This document shows, piece after piece, positions 43,837 to 51,092 of a stretch of DNA of 64,000 nucleotides. Numbering within the stretch: position 1 is the first letter of the stretch; each line of letters begins with the position of its first letter. Made by a program: the position numbers and the translations under genes. Under the pieces are notes generated by a model that was not told the DNA's origin, did no database searches, and saw only the letters and a list, made by a program, of their open reading frames with translations. This DNA comes from Betaproteobacteria bacterium (GTDB taxonomy: Bacteria > Pseudomonadota > Gammaproteobacteria > Burkholderiales > Thiobacillaceae), in NCBI GenBank assembly GCA_016234655.1, contig JACRAU010000015.1, forward strand, positions 124,001 through 188,000. Direction: 5' to 3'.

Positions 43837-44246
43837 GCGTAATCCACGATCCGGAACGTGTCGATGTCCTTGTCGAGTTGGCTCAAAACCTCCGCCAGGA
43901 AGCGCGGGTAGGGCGTGTCCGGCAGCAGCAGGCCGGGCCGCTCGATCACGATTATAGAGGGCTTGGCGATCACCGCCCGCAACAGCTTGGCGACGAAGCG
44001 CTGCTCGAAGTCGAGATCGGGGTCGCGCAGGTGGGCGCAAGCGGTATACCCCAGCCGTTCCAGCAAGGCCCAGGCCCGTTCGTTGGCCACGTGGGCCTTG
44101 GCGTTGTGGCGATATTGCGGCACCAGCGCGATGTTTTCCAGCACCGACAGGTTGGCGCGCAGGGGCAGCTCGGCCGAGACCAGCACGGCGTCGGCATGGG
44201 CCGCCAGCCAGGCGCGCCGTTCGGCGTCGTCGGCGACGAATTTCAG
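43806..44246 (-). CDS. Half-length ABC ATPase-like protein, no Walker A (MlaF position)
   Basis: 146 residues if read from a CTG that overlaps the permease stop (CTGA, like the ATGA couplings nearby), or 126 from GTG at 44186. AVLVSAELPLRANLSVLENIALVP aligns in style to the Q-loop segment of MlaF, and LLRAVIAKPSIIVIERPGLLL to the segment from after the signature through Walker B. But Walker A is absent and the LSGGQ position reads DLDFEQR. It is either a remnant or a specialised non-catalytic subunit. No in-frame ATG is present and the frame stays open upstream inside the permease gene. Confidence 0.65.
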   Translation of the reverse strand: MKFVADDAERRAWLAAHADAVLVSAELPLRANLSVLENIALVPQYRHNAKAHVANERAWALLERLGYTACAHLRDPDLDFEQRFVAKLLRAVIAKPSIIVIERPGLLLPDTPYPRFLAEVLSQLDKDIDTFRIVDYAWHAPLYPPI

Positions 44247-45037
44247 AGGTAGGTGATGGCTAATGATCCGACCTCGATCAACATCAATGCGAAAAACAGC
44301 CGCACCATGCCGGACAACACGGCGATGGGGGCGAAGAATAGTTTATGCGGCGAATCCAGGCCGGCCGCGATGGGGATGACGGTGACCGCCAGGCCGAACA
44401 GCAGGCATTTGAGCCAGAGGCCGAAGAGGAGCAGGGGGCTGTAGACCTGGCCGATCACCCAGGTGAAATCGGCAAAGCCGTGTGCTTGCGGGCCATACAG
44501 TTCCAGATAGGCGATGAGCAGCGCCGTGAGGCTGGTCAGGGCGGTCAAGGCCAGCACGGACACCACGCCGCCGATCACGCGTGGCAGGAACTCCAGGCGC
44601 AAGGGGTCGATGCCGACGCTGTGCAGGGCCTCGATTTCATTGGTGATGTTCATCAGCGCCACCTCGGCATTGATCGCCGCGCCCGAACGCAGGGCGATGA
44701 ATAGGGCGGTCATCAAGGGCAGCAGTTCGATGACCAGGATGCGTAGGATAAGTTCGAGCGCCAGATCGCCCAGGCCGTAATTTTGCGCGGCGGTGGTGGC
44801 GATACGGATCAGGATCAGGCTGAACACGGCGGCGAACAGGTTGAAGCCGAACAATATCTGCCAGGCCGTGAAGTAGATCTGTTTCTGTACCACCGTGCGG
44901 GTGGCGCTGTTGTAGAGACCCGGCGACAGGATGCCGGCCAGGGTGACCGTGCCGAAACGCAGGGTTCTGGCCCAGGCGGCGAAGCGCGCGATCAGGGCAT
45001 CGCCGCTTCGGGTGAGCAAATCGGTGAGCCAGGACAT
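44243..45037 (-). CDS. MlaE-family ABC transporter permease
   Basis: 264 residues from MSWLTDLLTRSG (or six more from 45055). Five to six membrane segments; ALRSGAAINAEVALMNITNEIEALHSVGIDPL (about 130-160) is the conserved MlaE cytoplasmic coupling region, followed by LPRVIGGVVSVLALT. Family members move lipids between the membranes of the envelope. First gene of a four-gene operon; it diverges from the SH3-domain gene. Confidence 0.92.
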   Translation of the reverse strand: MSWLTDLLTRSGDALIARFAAWARTLRFGTVTLAGILSPGLYNSATRTVVQKQIYFTAWQILFGFNLFAAVFSLILIRIATTAAQNYGLGDLALELILRILVIELLPLMTALFIALRSGAAINAEVALMNITNEIEALHSVGIDPLRLEFLPRVIGGVVSVLALTALTSLTALLIAYLELYGPQAHGFADFTWVIGQVYSPLLLFGLWLKCLLFGLAVTVIPIAAGLDSPHKLFFAPIAVLSGMVRLFFALMLIEVGSLAITYL

Positions 45038-45111
45038 TGGGCGATCATAATGCATTCGATCGGGCCGGTGGGTATCATGGCCGCTAGGATGCGATCAGGG
45101 AGAAAGCGATG

Positions 45112-45116
45112 CTTAG
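45112..45116. repeat. Target-site duplication, left copy (CTTAG)
   Basis: CTTAG directly before the MITE-like element; the identical pentamer follows it at 45382-45386. Confidence 0.8.
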
Positions 45117-45381
45117 AGCCTGTCTCATAAAATCTCGCGGAGCGCGTTGCCGCCAGAAACGGATGGATGAAAGGCGCGGTGCGCGGGCAATGGTCGTTCC
45201 ATTGCCAAGCGCCGCAACGCGGCAGACGCCGTTTCTGGCGGCAACCCTCCGGGGCGGTAGCGATTTTGCCGCATGCCTTTGTCGCGCCCCGCTTGTTTGG
45301 AATGACCAAACCGCGCGTTGCGCTTCGCGGCCTGCATCAAAATCGTCACTGCCGCGCCTGCGGGATTTTATGAGGCAGGCT
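45117..45381. mobile_element. 265-bp MITE-like element inserted in the SH3-domain gene
   Basis: Ends AGCCTGTCTCATAAAATC and, on the other strand, AGCCTGCCTCATAAAATC: 17 of 18 bases match, and the similarity continues to about 25. Both sides carry CTTAG. Inside, GTTGCCGCCAGAAACGG (45147 region) has an exact reverse complement about 70 bases on, GGCAATGG/CCATTGCC forms a hairpin, and GCGATTTTG pairs with CAAAATCGT. No transposase is encoded, so it would have to move with a partner enzyme elsewhere. With one CTTAG copy the insert adds 270 bases, so the reading frame of the host gene is kept. Confidence 0.88.
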
Positions 45382-45909
45382 CTTAGATGGATCGTGCTTG
45401 CCGCCGGCCTTTGCGCCGCGCCGGCCTGGGCCGCGCCCGGCGTGATGCTCAAGGACGAGCCCTTGCGCGCCACGGCCTCGGCGACGGCGGCGGAACTGGC
45501 GAAGACGGCCAAGGGCGAGGCGGTCGACATCCTGGCCCGCCAGGGCGGCTGGAGCCAGGTGCGCGTGCAAGGCAAGACCGGCTGGGTGCGCCTGCTCTCG
45601 GTGCGCGGCGGCGCGGCCGCGCAGACCGACGTGGCCGGCGAGTTGCAGGGCGTCTTGTCCCTTGGCGCCACGCGGCGCGACCCGAACAAGGTCGTGGCGG
45701 TCGCCGGGGTGCGCGGCCTGAGCGAAGAGGAGCTGAAGCAGGCGCGTTTCGACGAGCGGGCGCTGCGGCAGATGGAAAGCCTTGGCGCGACCGCGCAGGA
45801 GGCCGCGCGCTTCGCGGCCGAGGCGGGCCTGTCGCGGCGCGACGTGGCCTATCTGCCGGCGCCGCAAGGCCAGGCGGCGGGCGATACGTCGTGGGGAGGC
45901 GCCCAATGA
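45370..45909 (+). CDS. Secreted SH3-domain protein (start re-made by the MITE)
   Basis: 179 residues from ATG at 45370, which lies in the right end of the element: MRQALRWIVLAAGLCAAPAWA is a good signal peptide. The frame is also open from the old ATG at 45109 (266 residues), but then a 90-residue element-encoded stretch precedes the signal. Removing the element plus one CTTAG restores MLRWIVLAAGLCAAPAWA. The mature part has a bacterial SH3 domain (about 25-80; ILARQGGWSQVRVQGKTGWVRLLSV) and a charged C-terminal tail. Overlaps the M48 gene by three bases in an ATGA junction. Confidence 0.85.
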   Translation: MRQALRWIVLAAGLCAAPAWAAPGVMLKDEPLRATASATAAELAKTAKGEAVDILARQGGWSQVRVQGKTGWVRLLSVRGGAAAQTDVAGELQGVLSLGATRRDPNKVVAVAGVRGLSEEELKQARFDERALRQMESLGATAQEAARFAAEAGLSRRDVAYLPAPQGQAAGDTSWGGAQ

Positions 45910-46772
45910 GACAGCTTCCGAGTGCCTTGCTGTTGATCTTGGCCGTGCTAGCGTCGGGCGCGCAGGCCGCCGGCCTGGGCGGCTTGCTGCGCGGCGTGCT
46001 GGATGGCGTGCAGCCGCAGAGCCAGGCCCAGCCGGCCGACGCGGGGGTGGGCAATCTGGTGCAGGCCCTGGCCGGTGGCCAAACCTCGGCCGAGGAAGAG
46101 GCCGACATCGGCCGCCGCATCGCCGGCAATCTGCTCGGCGCCGCGCCCTTGGTGGCCGACGAGGGCCTGCAACGCTATGTCAATCGCGTCGGCCGCTGGG
46201 TGGCGGGCGGCAGCGAACGGCCCGAGCTGGTCTGGCGCTTCGGTGTCATCGACAGCGAGGACATCAACGCCTTCGCCGCGCCCGGCGGTTATGTCTTCGT
46301 CACCAAGGGGCTGTACAAGAAATTGCGGAACGAGGCCGAACTGGCGGCGGTGCTGGGCCACGAGATCGGCCATGTCCTGCGCCGGCACCACCTCAAGCTC
46401 ATGCAGCAATCGCAGATGGTCTCGGCCGTGGGCGGCCTGCTCGGCCAGCGATTGCGCGACAAGAACCAGATCGTGCAGAACCTGATCGGCAACGGCGCGG
46501 AGATCGTCGCCCGCTCGCTCGACAAGGATGCCGAGTACGAGGCCGACCGCATGGGCATGGTGCTGGCCGCGCGCGCCGGCTACGACGGCTATGCCTTGCC
46601 GGCGGTGTTGCAGGAGATCGGCCACGTGCCGGCGCAAGACAGCCGCATGGCCTTGCTCTATAAGACGCACCCGCATCCCGAGGATAGATTGACCCGGCTG
46701 GGCGAGGCCGTGGCCTCGACCGAACTGCCCGACGGCCGTCTGGTCGAAAACCGGCTCTATCGCTTGAAATGA
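45906..46772 (+). CDS. Secreted M48-family zinc metalloprotease
   Basis: 288 residues. A signal peptide (LPSALLLILAVLASGAQA) precedes an M48 domain with HEIGHVLRRHH near residue 156 (HExxH zinc site) and the third ligand in EYEADRMGM near 210. FVTKGLYKKLRNEAELAAVLG is typical. It resembles the BepA/LoiP group of periplasmic quality-control proteases. Start set by ATGA overlap with the SH3 gene; the longer frame from 45387 is a shadow. It overlaps the cyclase gene by four bases. Confidence 0.92.
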   Translation: MRQLPSALLLILAVLASGAQAAGLGGLLRGVLDGVQPQSQAQPADAGVGNLVQALAGGQTSAEEEADIGRRIAGNLLGAAPLVADEGLQRYVNRVGRWVAGGSERPELVWRFGVIDSEDINAFAAPGGYVFVTKGLYKKLRNEAELAAVLGHEIGHVLRRHHLKLMQQSQMVSAVGGLLGQRLRDKNQIVQNLIGNGAEIVARSLDKDAEYEADRMGMVLAARAGYDGYALPAVLQEIGHVPAQDSRMALLYKTHPHPEDRLTRLGEAVASTELPDGRLVENRLYRLK

Positions 46773-48973
46773 CCCTGCGCGCGCGTCGCTTTCTCGGGCA
46801 ACTGGCGTTCGGCCTGGCGTTCTTGCTGATCCTGCTCGGTCATGCCGGCGGCCTGTACAAGCTGTACTTCATCGACAAGCTGGATGCCGCTCTCTACGAC
46901 CTCAAGGTGCAGTTGTTCCGTCCGCAGGGCCTGGATGACCGTATCGTCATCGTCGACATCGACGAGAAATCGCTGCAAGAGATCGGCCGCTGGCCCTGGC
47001 CGCGCGTGCAAACGGCGAAGCTGACGGAAAACCTGTTCACGCAATACGGCGTCGCGGCCGTGGGTTTCGACATCGTCTTCGCCGAGCCCGACCAAAGCTC
47101 CGGCCTGCCGGTATTGCAAGGCCTGGCCCGTGGCGCGTTGGCCGGCGAGAACGGTTTCGCCAAGATGCTGGAGCGCATCCGTCCCGGCCTGGACTACGAT
47201 GCCCGCCTGGCCCAGGCCTTGGGCAAGGGGCCGGCGGTGCTCGGCTATTACTTCGGTTTCGGCGACGAGGCCGGGCGGGTCGGCGCCTTGCCGCCGGCCG
47301 ATCTGGCTTGCGACCGTCTATCTCGGGCAGGCGTGCGGGCCCCGAGGGCGACGGGGCACGGCGCCAACCTGGCGGCGCTGCAAACCAGCGTGGCATATGC
47401 CGGCTTTTTCAATATCCAACCCGATTTCGACGGCGTGATCCGGCGCCAGCCTTTGCTGATCGATTATCAAGGCCAGTGCCGCGCGGCCTTGCCTATCGCC
47501 TTGGTGCGCGCGGGCTTGGGCCTGGGCGCGATCGAGGTCGCCGCGCCGGCCAGGCTCACGCTCGACGGCATGGACGTGCCGATCGATGTGAATGCGATGG
47601 CGCTGGTGCCGTACCGGGCAACGCCGGCCTTTCGCTATATCTCGGCGACCGATGTGATCCACAGCCGGGTGCCGGCGGCCGAGTTGGAGGGGCGTTTGGT
47701 GCTGGTCGGCGCCACCGCGCCCGGCATCATGGACCTGCGCGTGGTGCCGGGCAACAAGGCCTTTCCGGGCGTGGAGATCCACGCCAACATGATCTCCGGC
47801 ATCTTGGACGGCAGCGTTAAATGGGAGTCGCCGCGCACGCGCGAATGGAGCCTTATCGCCGTCGCCGTGCTGGGCGTGCTGCTGGCGGCGTGGTTGCCGT
47901 TCGCCGCGCCGCTGTGGGCTGGCGCCGGCGCGGCCGGCCTGATGGGCCTGGCGCTCGGCGCGGACATCCATGCCTGGCTTGCGCTGAACTTGAGTTTGCC
48001 ATCGGCGACCTTGTTGTATGCGATAGCGGGCCTGTTCATCCTCAACATGAGTTACGGTTTCTTCGTCGAGGCGCGGTCCAAGCTGCAACTCACGCGCCTG
48101 TTCGGCCAATACGTGCCGCCGGAACTAGTCGACGAGATGGCGCGCGACCCGGCCCGTTACAGCCTGCGCGGCCAGTCGCGCGAGATGACGGTGCTGTTTT
48201 CCGACATCCGCGATTTCACCAGCATCTCGGAGGGTTTGGAGGCGGCCGCGCTGGCCGAGATGCTGAACGTCTACCTGTCGGCCATGACCCGCGTGGTGCA
48301 GGAACACCGCGGCACCATCGACAAATACATCGGCGATGCGATCATGGCCTTCTGGGGCGCGCCGCTGAGCAACGAGCGCCACGCGCGCGACGGCGTGTTG
48401 ACCGCCTTGGCCATGCAGCGGGCCTTGAGCGAGCTGAACCCGCGCTTGCGCGAACACGGCTGGCCGGCGGTGAAGATCGGCGTGGGCGTCAATACCGGCC
48501 GCATGAGCGTCGGCAATATGGGCTCGGCATTCCGCATGGCCTATACCGTGTTGGCCGATGCGGTGAACCTGGCCTCGCGCCTGGAAGGGCTGACCAAGCA
48601 ATACGGGGTGGGCGTCTTGTGCGGCGAGGACACGCGCCAAGCCTGCCCCGATATCGCCTTTCGCTTGATCGACCAGGTTCGGGTCAAGGGCAAGCAGCAG
48701 CCCGTCGCCATTTATGAACCCTTGGGCGTGGCCGGCGAGTTGCCTCCCGAGGCCTTGGCGTCGGCGCGGCTGTTCGAGGCGGCATTGGCCGAATATCGCG
48801 CGCAACGTTGGGATGCCGCCGATGGCAAGCTGAGGGCAATACTTACAGAAAATGTCGAATATACGGAAGGGACAAAAAATCTATGCGAGGTATATTTGAA
48901 ACGTATTGAGCATTTTCGTCGCGAGCCGCCACCGGCTGACTGGGACGGCGTGTTCACCTTCACGACCAAGTAA
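46769..48973 (+). CDS. CHASE2-domain adenylate cyclase (class III)
   Basis: 734 residues: an N-terminal membrane anchor (about 10-28), periplasmic CHASE2 sensor (about 35-345), three membrane segments (about 360-430), then a class III cyclase (about 465-640). Metal-binding Asps are in VLFSDIRDFTS and DKYIGDAIMAF; the Lys of DKYIGD indicates ATP rather than GTP. MAYTVLADAVNLASRLEG completes the site. Coupled to the M48 gene (ATGA). A phosphodiesterase gene follows after 25 bases. The signal read by CHASE2 is unknown; the secreted SH3 and protease partners suggest an envelope cue. Confidence 0.93.
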   Translation: MTLRARRFLGQLAFGLAFLLILLGHAGGLYKLYFIDKLDAALYDLKVQLFRPQGLDDRIVIVDIDEKSLQEIGRWPWPRVQTAKLTENLFTQYGVAAVGFDIVFAEPDQSSGLPVLQGLARGALAGENGFAKMLERIRPGLDYDARLAQALGKGPAVLGYYFGFGDEAGRVGALPPADLACDRLSRAGVRAPRATGHGANLAALQTSVAYAGFFNIQPDFDGVIRRQPLLIDYQGQCRAALPIALVRAGLGLGAIEVAAPARLTLDGMDVPIDVNAMALVPYRATPAFRYISATDVIHSRVPAAELEGRLVLVGATAPGIMDLRVVPGNKAFPGVEIHANMISGILDGSVKWESPRTREWSLIAVAVLGVLLAAWLPFAAPLWAGAGAAGLMGLALGADIHAWLALNLSLPSATLLYAIAGLFILNMSYGFFVEARSKLQLTRLFGQYVPPELVDEMARDPARYSLRGQSREMTVLFSDIRDFTSISEGLEAAALAEMLNVYLSAMTRVVQEHRGTIDKYIGDAIMAFWGAPLSNERHARDGVLTALAMQRALSELNPRLREHGWPAVKIGVGVNTGRMSVGNMGSAFRMAYTVLADAVNLASRLEGLTKQYGVGVLCGEDTRQACPDIAFRLIDQVRVKGKQQPVAIYEPLGVAGELPPEALASARLFEAALAEYRAQRWDAADGKLRAILTENVEYTEGTKNLCEVYLKRIEHFRREPPPADWDGVFTFTTK

Positions 48974-48998
48974 GGCGTCACGGCAAGGAGAGTCACCG

Positions 48999-49763
48999 AT
49001 GCGGGTGCGGGTATTGGGTTGCAACGGCGGGATCGGCGACAATCGCCACACCACTTCGTTCTTGATCGACGAGGATATCCTGCTCGACGCCGGCAGCGGC
49101 GTGACCCGGCTCGATCTCGATGCCTTGGTCAAGATCGACCATGTCTTCCTGACCCATGCCCATCTCGACCATGTCCTGGCCTTGCCGCCGATGTTGGACA
49201 GCGTGTTGGAGCGGCGCGAGCGGCCGATCGTGTTGCATGCCACCGCCGAGGTGCTGGAAGTGCTCCAGCGCCATCTGTTCAACTGGCATCTCTGGCCGGA
49301 CTTCAATTGCATTCCCAGCAAGGAAGCGCCCTTGCTGGTCTACGAGACGGTTGCCGTCGGGCAAGCGGTTCGCATCGGCAGTCGTGAGATCACGCCGATT
49401 CCGGCCAACCATGTGGTGCCCACGGTGGGCTATCTGCTGCGCGGCAGCCGTGGCAGCGTGATTTTTTCCGGCGACACATGCAGCCATGCCGCCTTGTGGG
49501 ACATCGCCAAGGCGACGAGCGATCTCAAGCACTTGATTGTCGAGTGTTCCTTCCCCAACGACATGCGCGAGATCGCCGATCTATCCAAACATTATTGCCC
49601 GGCCACCTTGAGCTCGGACTTGGCGGGCTTCCGGCCGGACGTGCCGGTCTGGCTGACGCATATGAAACCGGGCCGGGAAATGGACATCATCGTCGAGGTC
49701 GACGATCTGGTGAAGGGCAGGGTCGTGCAAACCTTGCGCGAGGGGCATCTACTCGAGATATAA
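48999..49763 (+). CDS. Class II 3',5'-cyclic-nucleotide phosphodiesterase (metallo-beta-lactamase fold)
   Basis: 254 residues from MRVRVLGCNGGIGDN, with AAGGAG eight bases before it. The metal motif is FLTHAHLDHVLALPPM (HxHxDH) near 52-66, with further ligands in GSVIFSGDTCSHAALWD and VWLTHMKPG. N-terminal NRHTTSFLIDEDILLDAGSG is typical of PDEase_II, which hydrolyses cAMP. No signal peptide, so it is cytoplasmic. Directly behind the adenylate cyclase, it would give a self-limiting cAMP circuit. Confidence 0.87.
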   Translation: MRVRVLGCNGGIGDNRHTTSFLIDEDILLDAGSGVTRLDLDALVKIDHVFLTHAHLDHVLALPPMLDSVLERRERPIVLHATAEVLEVLQRHLFNWHLWPDFNCIPSKEAPLLVYETVAVGQAVRIGSREITPIPANHVVPTVGYLLRGSRGSVIFSGDTCSHAALWDIAKATSDLKHLIVECSFPNDMREIADLSKHYCPATLSSDLAGFRPDVPVWLTHMKPGREMDIIVEVDDLVKGRVVQTLREGHLLEI

Positions 49764-49826: not shown

Positions 49827-51092
49827 TCAGAGCGCCAGGGTGTCCGCCCAGATGTTCTTGGCCCAGGACTCCATGTAGTGCCATTCGATCTCGCTCTCTT
49901 CCTTCGAGACGCCGGTCGCGCCCTTGGGCACTTCCCACTTGCCTTCCGCGCTGAGCCGCCAGACCGCGGCCACGTGAATGGCGGTCTTGGAGGAGGTGGC
50001 GGAGAAGCAGGTGTTGGTGATCACCGGCACCTTTTCGGCTTCGCGGCCATTCAGCAGTTCGACCAGCGCGGCGGCGCAGACCTTGCCATAGTTGTTGGCC
50101 ATGGAGCCGGACTTCGGCGTCGGGGCGGAGATCGAGTCGCCGATGATGTGAACGTTGGGCGCGACCTTGGACTCCAGGGTGCGGAAGTCCACCGAGCACC
50201 AGTTGTCCTTGTCGTCCCGCACACCGGCCATGGCGGTGATGCCATGGGCGCGCATCGGCGGCACCACGTTCAGCACGTCGGCCTTGACGTCCTCGACATC
50301 GAGCACGATGGTGTTCTTGGCAGCATCAAGCCGTGTTGGCTTGCTGTTCGGGCGATATTCGATCATGCCCTCGTAGTGCTTCTTCCAAGCCGCCAGAAAT
50401 AGCCCCTTCTTCGACACGATGTCGGCATTGCTGTCGAGCACCAGTATCTTGGACTTGGGCTTGGCCGCCTTGAAGTAGTTGGCCACCATGCTGATCCGTT
50501 CGTAAGGTCCGGGCGGGCAGCGATAGGGCATGGCCGGGATGGACAGGGCGTAGACGCCGCCGTCGGGCATGGCCTCCAACTGCTTGCGCAGGGTCGCGGT
50601 CTGCGGGCCGGCCTTCCAGGCGTGCATGATGGTCTTCTGGGCCTTGGCGTCGTAGCCCTCGATCAGATCGAAGCGCAGCTCGATGCCGCCGGATAGCACT
50701 AGACGGTCGTAGGCAAAGGTCTTGCCGCTCTTGCACTTGACCACGCGCTTGGCGGTATCGAAGCCGACCACCTCGTCCTTCACCAGCTTGACGCCGGCCT
50801 TCTTCAGGCCGTTGTAGCCGAAGGTGAGGTCTTGCAGCTTGTTGACACCGCCGAGCACGGTGTTGGAGAAGGGACAGGAGACGAACTTGTCGTTCATCTC
50901 GATCAGGGTGACCTCGATCTTCGGATCCCACAGCTTGAGGTAGCGGGCGCAGGTGGCGCCACCGAAGCCGCCGCCGACGATGACCACCTTCGGTTTGGCA
51001 CCGGCGATGGCCAGGCTGCTGAATGAACCGAGGCTGGCCGCACCTGCCGCGCCGGCGGAAATCTTCAGAAAATCACGGCGATTGAATGCCAT
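49827..51092 (-). CDS. fccB: Flavocytochrome c sulfide dehydrogenase, flavoprotein subunit
   Basis: 421 residues with a Tat signal (NRRDFLKISAGAAGAASL), so the folded FAD protein is sent to the periplasm. The FAD-binding VVIVGGGFGGATCARYL lies near 36-52; then FVSCPFSNTVLGG near 73 and MPYRCPPGPYERI near 190 carry conserved Cys, one for a covalent FAD link in known enzymes and others redox active. The C-terminal FCSD domain ends in SWAKNIWADTLAL. It oxidises sulfide to polysulfide or sulfur and passes electrons to the cytochrome encoded just upstream. Confidence 0.93.
   Translation of the reverse strand: MAFNRRDFLKISAGAAGAASLGSFSSLAIAGAKPKVVIVGGGFGGATCARYLKLWDPKIEVTLIEMNDKFVSCPFSNTVLGGVNKLQDLTFGYNGLKKAGVKLVKDEVVGFDTAKRVVKCKSGKTFAYDRLVLSGGIELRFDLIEGYDAKAQKTIMHAWKAGPQTATLRKQLEAMPDGGVYALSIPAMPYRCPPGPYERISMVANYFKAAKPKSKILVLDSNADIVSKKGLFLAAWKKHYEGMIEYRPNSKPTRLDAAKNTIVLDVEDVKADVLNVVPPMRAHGITAMAGVRDDKDNWCSVDFRTLESKVAPNVHIIGDSISAPTPKSGSMANNYGKVCAAALVELLNGREAEKVPVITNTCFSATSSKTAIHVAAVWRLSAEGKWEVPKGATGVSKEESEIEWHYMESWAKNIWADTLAL

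Follow-up and report, generated by a model that had tools for sequence, protein, structure and literature searches.

The window analysed here is the whole stretch of 64,000 nucleotides, taken from a genome of 2.67 Mb, and it contains an operon whose SH3-domain gene is interrupted just behind its start codon by a palindromic DNA element. The question raised by this locus is whether a gene entered at its first codons is lost, or whether the end of the inserted element can lead translation back into the gene. A preliminary description proposed that a MITE-like element had landed in a signal peptide and supplied a new start codon. Comparison with related genomes confirmed that observation with corrected borders, and the interpretation is partly supported by the sequences: a start would indeed be supplied, but behind an intact old start. 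The stop-and-restart arrangement described below for the wider family of elements is new relative to that description, as it is not visible from one copy.

Identity and borders of the element

The features of the locus are given below, with the strand where one applies.

44243 to 45055, minus strand: mlaE-like permease gene, divergent neighbour
45043 to 45055: GATCATAATGCAT, a block that all 5 genus relatives conserve, left whole here on the 5' side of the element; it lies between mlaE and the SH3 gene and is perhaps shared promoter/operator DNA
45070 to 45078: GGGTATCAT, a further block of this intergenic region that all 5 genus relatives conserve, with a putative function
45097 to 45103, plus strand: ancestral ribosome binding site AGGGAGA, assigned from the sequence, position as in the relatives
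45109 to 45909, plus strand: open reading frame from the ancestral ATG (45109), fused via the element to the SH3 gene, 266 aa
45113 to 45115: left copy of the target duplication, TTA, from the comparison of copies
45116 to 45382: IS1031-type non-autonomous element, 267 bp (nine complete genus copies are 84.6-94.0% identical to it over 267 columns)
45116 to 45138: left terminal inverted repeat, reading inward GAG-CCT-GTC-TCA-TAA, a stop in one frame
45146 to 45245: core hairpin with arms 45146-45162 and 45229-45245 and compensatory arm changes, common to elements with other ends
45258: extra base, bringing the length from 266 to 267 bp and joining the leader reading frame to the gene
45360 to 45382: right terminal inverted repeat, reading outward ATG-AGG-CAG-GCT-C
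45370 to 45909, plus strand: SH3-domain gene from the element ATG, MRQALRWIVLAAGLCAAPAWA..., 179 aa (SH3_3 and SH3_4 over cut-offs in the 266-aa frame)
45383 to 45385: right copy of the target duplication, TTA, from the comparison of copies
45906 to 46772, plus strand: M48 peptidase gene, its ATG overlapping the SH3 stop (ATGA)
46769 to 48973, plus strand: CHASE2 - adenylate/guanylate cyclase gene, its start overlapping the M48 stop
48996 to 49763, plus strand: metallo-beta-lactamase-fold / class II cAMP phosphodiesterase-like gene

The comparison of copies gave termini of GAGCC...GGCTC for the element, which in the window are GAGCCTGTCTCATAAAATC and its near complement, flanked on both sides by TTA. 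The element first described as 265 bp long is real and MITE-like, and only its borders had to be moved. A 5-bp duplication of CTTAG had also been proposed; these letters are literally present on both flanks, but the 15 insertions compared point to a 3-bp duplication of TTA, the outer C and G being matching neighbour bases outside the duplication. Joining the flanks without the element yields MLRWIVLAAGLCAAPAWA, in line with the proposed rejoined signal peptide. The insertion, first put in codon 3, lies in codons 2-3. The frame is kept in the window copy (267 + 3 = 270), as had been calculated, although this length is not general: within the genus it is confined to the window copy, and 9 of 9 other complete genus copies are 266 bp. 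At the extra base, the window copy reads GGTAGCG where the genus copies have GG-GGCG, and because more than one base of this run differs, a plain sequencing slip appears less likely. The inverted arms at 45112-45138 and 45360-45386 are 89% complementary over 27 nt, and the internal arms are 100% complementary over 17 nt. The consensus end, read outward, is ATG-AGA-CAG-GCT-C-TNA.

By its sequence, the element is classed as a MITE-like, non-autonomous transposable element of the IS1031 type (IS5 family). It is short and bears terminal inverted repeats, its copies lie at different sites with target duplications (clean in 9 of the 15 two-ended insertions), and an empty site for the window insertion is present in 5 of 5 genus genomes. 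The accessible text of PMC12016507 gives the IS1031 group of the IS5 family a TNA target with a 3-bp duplication, which the window element shares, and all nine clean duplications found here are TNA. The ends of ISLrh, a member of that group shown in the same text, are GAACCTGTCTAGTATCT compared with GAGCCTGTCTCATAAAA for the window element. The window element differs from the group in having a length of 267 bp and no transposase gene; a Pfam scan of the reading frame through it returned SH3 families only.

A transposase gene with the same ends, which the preliminary description had suggested looking for, was found neither in the six genus genomes nor at nine family loci. PF01609 and PF13340 were absent from all six genus genomes, some of which are incomplete and one of which is a single contig with eight two-ended copies. 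PF13340 occurred at nine places in 8 of 117 family genomes, and none of these nine loci carried the element ends with up to 5 mismatches allowed. In an unrelated genome, the MAG NALB_7821a_18 (L093-L118), identical 18-bp ends flank a truncated reading frame with PF13340 and PF01609 (L103). This genome has seven elements of 56-68 bp with near-identical 18-bp ends and further elements of 308 bp and 851 bp, the latter holding the truncated IS5-type transposase of L103. A comparison of that transposase with viral contigs found no relative, and no clear start donation was seen among the ends listed for this genome.

The empty site and the DNA upstream of the insertion

The empty site expected in relatives was found in 5 of 5 genus genomes, between the mlaE-like gene and the SH3 gene, and the interval aligns with the window once the element and one TTA are removed. 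The first residues of the relatives' proteins are MFRGGLI (twice), MKIFRSG, MKRLHIG and MKSLRMC, and thus differ from the MLRWIVL start that had been anticipated; the start position and the signal peptide nevertheless correspond. The SH3, M48 and cyclase genes are adjacent in all five relatives. These comparisons indicate that the element entered an SH3/M48/cyclase/phosphodiesterase operon at codons 2-3 of its SH3 gene.

It had been suggested that the element replaced promoter-proximal sequence, ribosome binding site and start. The layout in all five relatives consists of GATCATAATGCAT, GGGTATCAT, a ribosome binding site, the ATG, the signal peptide and the SH3 gene, and in the window both blocks, the ribosome binding site and the ancestral ATG are all still in place upstream of the element. 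Nothing promoter-proximal was therefore lost or replaced, and we infer that the old promoter still drives the operon. A sigma-70-type promoter scan of 44980-45480 recognised none, the old promoter included, so the scan does not decide where transcription starts. A new promoter inside the element was considered as a candidate and set aside, as the same scan gave none.

Within the operon, stop and start codons overlap naturally at both the SH3/M48 and the M48/cyclase junction. The start of the M48 gene, ATGAGACAG (45906-45914), resembles the consensus end of the element, probably by chance. The operon is adjoined by a flavocytochrome c sulfide dehydrogenase flavoprotein-like gene with a Tat signal (49827-51092).

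Copies in relatives and their insertion sites

A search for further copies had been suggested, and 14 two-ended insertions were found in relatives. A DNA search gave element matches in 17 of 61 genomes, the genome of the window being among the 61. In addition to the nine complete copies of 266 bp, the genus has a copy of 443 bp that a second element of 177 bp interrupts, as well as two shorter copies of 193 and 161 bp. Copies in other genera are 266 bp (G112) and 267 bp with 75% identity (G024). Together with the window copy, 15 two-ended insertions were counted. The count excludes insertions with one recognised end or with broken ends (G000:C24; G004 1109570 and 2443109; G002:C61 and C12), as well as DNA-search matches that are partial or restricted to the core. 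The clean 3-bp duplications, present in nine, are TTA, TAA or TGA; gatC, livM and mtgA are among the six without one.

The 15 insertions fall at several kinds of site. In five, the site is among codons 2-6 of a gene: SH3 (G000), dxr and mtgA (G004), livM (G005) and gatC (G112). Four lie on a stop codon (rpsT and yaeQ in G004, a DUF3426 gene in G005, lemA in G024), and since the stop codon is itself the TNA target, the stop is kept. In G002, one occupies the junction of a response regulator gene with a histidine kinase gene: a TAA within the element end now terminates the regulator, and the kinase retains its own ATG just 3' of the duplication. Another four lie 24 to about 100 bases upstream of a gene, namely rlmH (by Pfam) and amidotransferase-like, TolC-like and ubiJ-like genes named by eye only. 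The last one is out of frame at about codon 20 of hslR (named by eye; L072 1504-1769, G004), and this gene appears broken.

Two features of individual copies may be recorded here. The dxr copy (G004, L083 1076-1518) holds the second element of 177 bp, with ends like GGCCGTTGAAAAACG, which leaves the leader frame open (177 = 59 codons). The contig JAIBEL010000032.1 (L106), titled Rhizobium sp., is identical to the G112 contig over the 2700 bases compared; G112 is placed in the family of the window, and the title or the binning of JAIBEL010000032.1 looks wrong.

Reading frames at the interrupted gene starts

In all five insertions in codons 2-6, the gene is in frame with the ATG at the element end and would begin with MRQAL-. 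In the window, the ATG at 45370 in the right end, which had been noted at the outset, gives MRQAL-RWIVLAAG, again a good signal peptide. In the other four, the frame opened by the old start stays open across the element as far as the TGA that overlaps the element-end ATG (ATGA), an overlap of the kind known from coupled genes in operons. The leader reading frames of dxr, gatC, mtgA and livM have 150, 87, 54 and 87 codons, respectively, with elements of 443, 266, 161 and 266 bp. Orthologues place the native starts of dxr and gatC a few codons 5' of the interruption point: dxr begins with MTxHNLTILG in 5 of 5 relatives, and gatC with MSL in all 11 relatives with a match (12 searched). The native starts of mtgA, and of livM in its own genome, are putative ones read off the left flank. 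From about 90 bases upstream to 30 downstream, the interrupted dxr and livM have no in-frame start but the element-end ATG, and gatC has an additional in-frame TTG at -42; in mtgA, scanned from -75 to +42, the sole other in-frame start is a TTG at +21.

A way for these genes to survive is suggested by how the ends of the element read, which is also why the SH3 gene need not have been destroyed. With a TNA target at codon positions 2-3-1, the entering and the leaving frames both fit, and a ribosome starting from the old ATG would read the whole element, meet the TGA inside ATGA in the outer inverted repeat, and restart on the overlapping ATG to make the protein as MRQAL- followed by the remainder. 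We consider such stop-and-restart coupling at the element end to be the probable mechanism, and infer that ribosomes restart at ATGA and that the restart product is the functional one. The stop/start overlaps used by the operon itself speak for such coupling. As far as the sequences indicate, the arrangement is recurrent in the family of elements, being found at dxr, gatC, livM and mtgA.

The window copy departs from this pattern. A 266-bp element at the same site would give an 87-codon leader ending at the same ATGA, but the extra base fuses leader and gene into 266 codons with no stop. As a result, a 266-aa fusion and a 179-aa restart product with the signal peptide MRQALRWIVLAAGLCAAPAWA are both possible in the window copy, and the fusion would make coupling unnecessary there. 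It may thus be asked whether the element has been domesticated as the 5' coding part of the gene, with the fusion as the working product and the signal sequence inside it. The single stop-free frame shared by the old ATG and the gene, due to a base with no counterpart in 9 of 9 complete genus copies, speaks for this, as does the tolerance of Rickettsia palindromic elements in frame inside genes, described in the accessible part of PMC10969869. Against domestication, the four other start insertions end at ATGA with no fusion, and a signal peptide about 90 residues within a protein is unusual. We regard domestication as unlikely.

Another alternative is that the insertions broke or weakened decaying genes, and that the in-frame ATG is a coincidence. 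The same element did break hslR, and the evidence considered here is genomic sequence only. Against decay, however, all five start insertions are in phase, and dxr and gatC, which are generally essential genes, are otherwise intact and match their family models nearly end to end. The probability of five in-frame insertions by phase alone is (1/3)^5 = 0.004, or p = 0.018 for five of six when hslR is included, where the insertion classes were drawn up after the data had been seen, the copies are related and the numbers are small. Decay as a general explanation is very improbable.

Elements with the end GAGCCTATTTCA, which has no ATG, provided a comparison: none of the eight examined showed a clear insertion in codons 2-6, in a crude look at reading frames and GC3 in which several contexts were ambiguous. 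The difference between 0 of 8 and 5 of 15 is not significant (one-sided, about 0.09 by our own arithmetic). Outside the family, the 18-mer at the starts of tpiA (L112) and tadA (L115), both named by eye, was taken as a chance match and not counted; about 7 such matches are expected by chance in 257 Gb, again by our own arithmetic.

RNA folding and access to the new start

The strong RNA fold that had been predicted from the nested inverted repeats is borne out by calculation. The element folds at -167.9 kcal/mol compared with -111.5 +/- 4.6 for shuffled sequences, which is 12 standard deviations below, and 0 of 200 shuffles were as good. In the full transcript the new start takes 37 kcal/mol to open, compared with 13 when the leader is out of the fold, while the old start takes 9 kcal/mol with or without the element. 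The new start is therefore predicted to stay buried in the structure until translating ribosomes keep the leader from folding, and this favours coupling over direct initiation in the folding model.

Direct internal initiation would instead use a small ribosome site in the end itself (GGGA, AGGA or GGGAG before ATTTT-ATG), with no coupling. Shine-Dalgarno-like letters do lie 4-6 bases 5' of the ATG in SH3, dxr and gatC; those before the ATGs of livM and mtgA are less so, and the site is buried in the terminal stem with the opening cost given above. Direct initiation seems to us a rather improbable account, even more so than domestication.

In terms of the core hairpin, the same structure also recurs in elements whose terminal repeats are of at least four kinds, GAGCCTGTCTCA, GAGCCTATTTCA, AGGGCGTGTTAACAC and GAGCGTCTAGCAG (L002-L005, L013-L020, L042 and L047), and its arms change together. 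The alignment took in 20 of 27 core sequences; the other seven were four near-duplicates, an unrelated chance match, a core with an internal deletion and a core interrupted by another element. Standard pairs occupy 96.9% of the pair cells in these 20 cores compared with 79.9% in shuffles, and 19 of the 32 pairs have changes on both sides. The covariation score was reached by 0 of 500 shuffles, and the number of further pair types by 2 of 500. The core pairing could result from selection, either on RNA or on a DNA hairpin, or from arm-to-arm templating. In the outer helix, G-U pairs (7) and A-C mismatches (6) are about equal, so that the strand is not decided there. An Rfam search over 44900-45600 gave no match near the gathering score, and a known RNA family was rejected as a candidate.

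Are the element ends kept by selection?

The three phases of the TNA target may be viewed together. It is conceivable, although we hold this only tentatively, that the element ends are portable translation punctuation kept by selection: one phase would give the ATGA restart, a second would keep or supply a stop (TAA or TGA serving as the target, or a TAA within the end), and the gene would be broken in the third phase alone. The consensus element is open to ATGA in both orientations and most copies in G004 are still open on both strands, so young copies are little informative. Under simulated neutral change, frame and ATGA were both retained in a moderate share of cases, 0.23 with 40 substitutions and 0.14 with 50. 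The livM and gatC copies, which are 40 and 48 substitutions from the consensus, both retain frame and ATGA on the side of the gene, and their opposite strands are closed. In total, the opposite-strand frame is closed in 3 of the 5 start-insertion copies.

Relation to known systems and meaning for compact genomes

Prokaryotic MITEs such as ERIC, BOX and the enterobacterial repeat units are described, in the accessible portions of PMC10969869 and PMC2759123, as short palindromic repeats with reading frames that fuse to genes. The element studied here differs from what those portions describe in its recurring stop that overlaps a restart at gene starts. The Rickettsia palindromic elements, according to the same portion of PMC10969869, make in-frame fusions with a conserved peptide, whereas here the gene would restart behind the element, in codons 2-6; the fusion is confined to the window copy, the other four of the five start insertions stopping at ATGA. 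The search of the accessible literature, with few subscription journals among it, found no description of a transposon end that supplies a coupled restart.

If stop-and-restart coupling is correct, a transposon can insert into the opening codons of an essential gene while the protein is kept, since its ends code for the stop and the restart, and these loci would be natural cases of long coupled leader reading frames. The end sequence of a selfish element would become testable as an adaptation to operons, and gene-calling software can err at sites of this kind, as with the 266 aa or 179 aa here. If the ends are indeed portable punctuation, a compact genome could house the transposon at the junctions and starts of its genes, even of essential ones.
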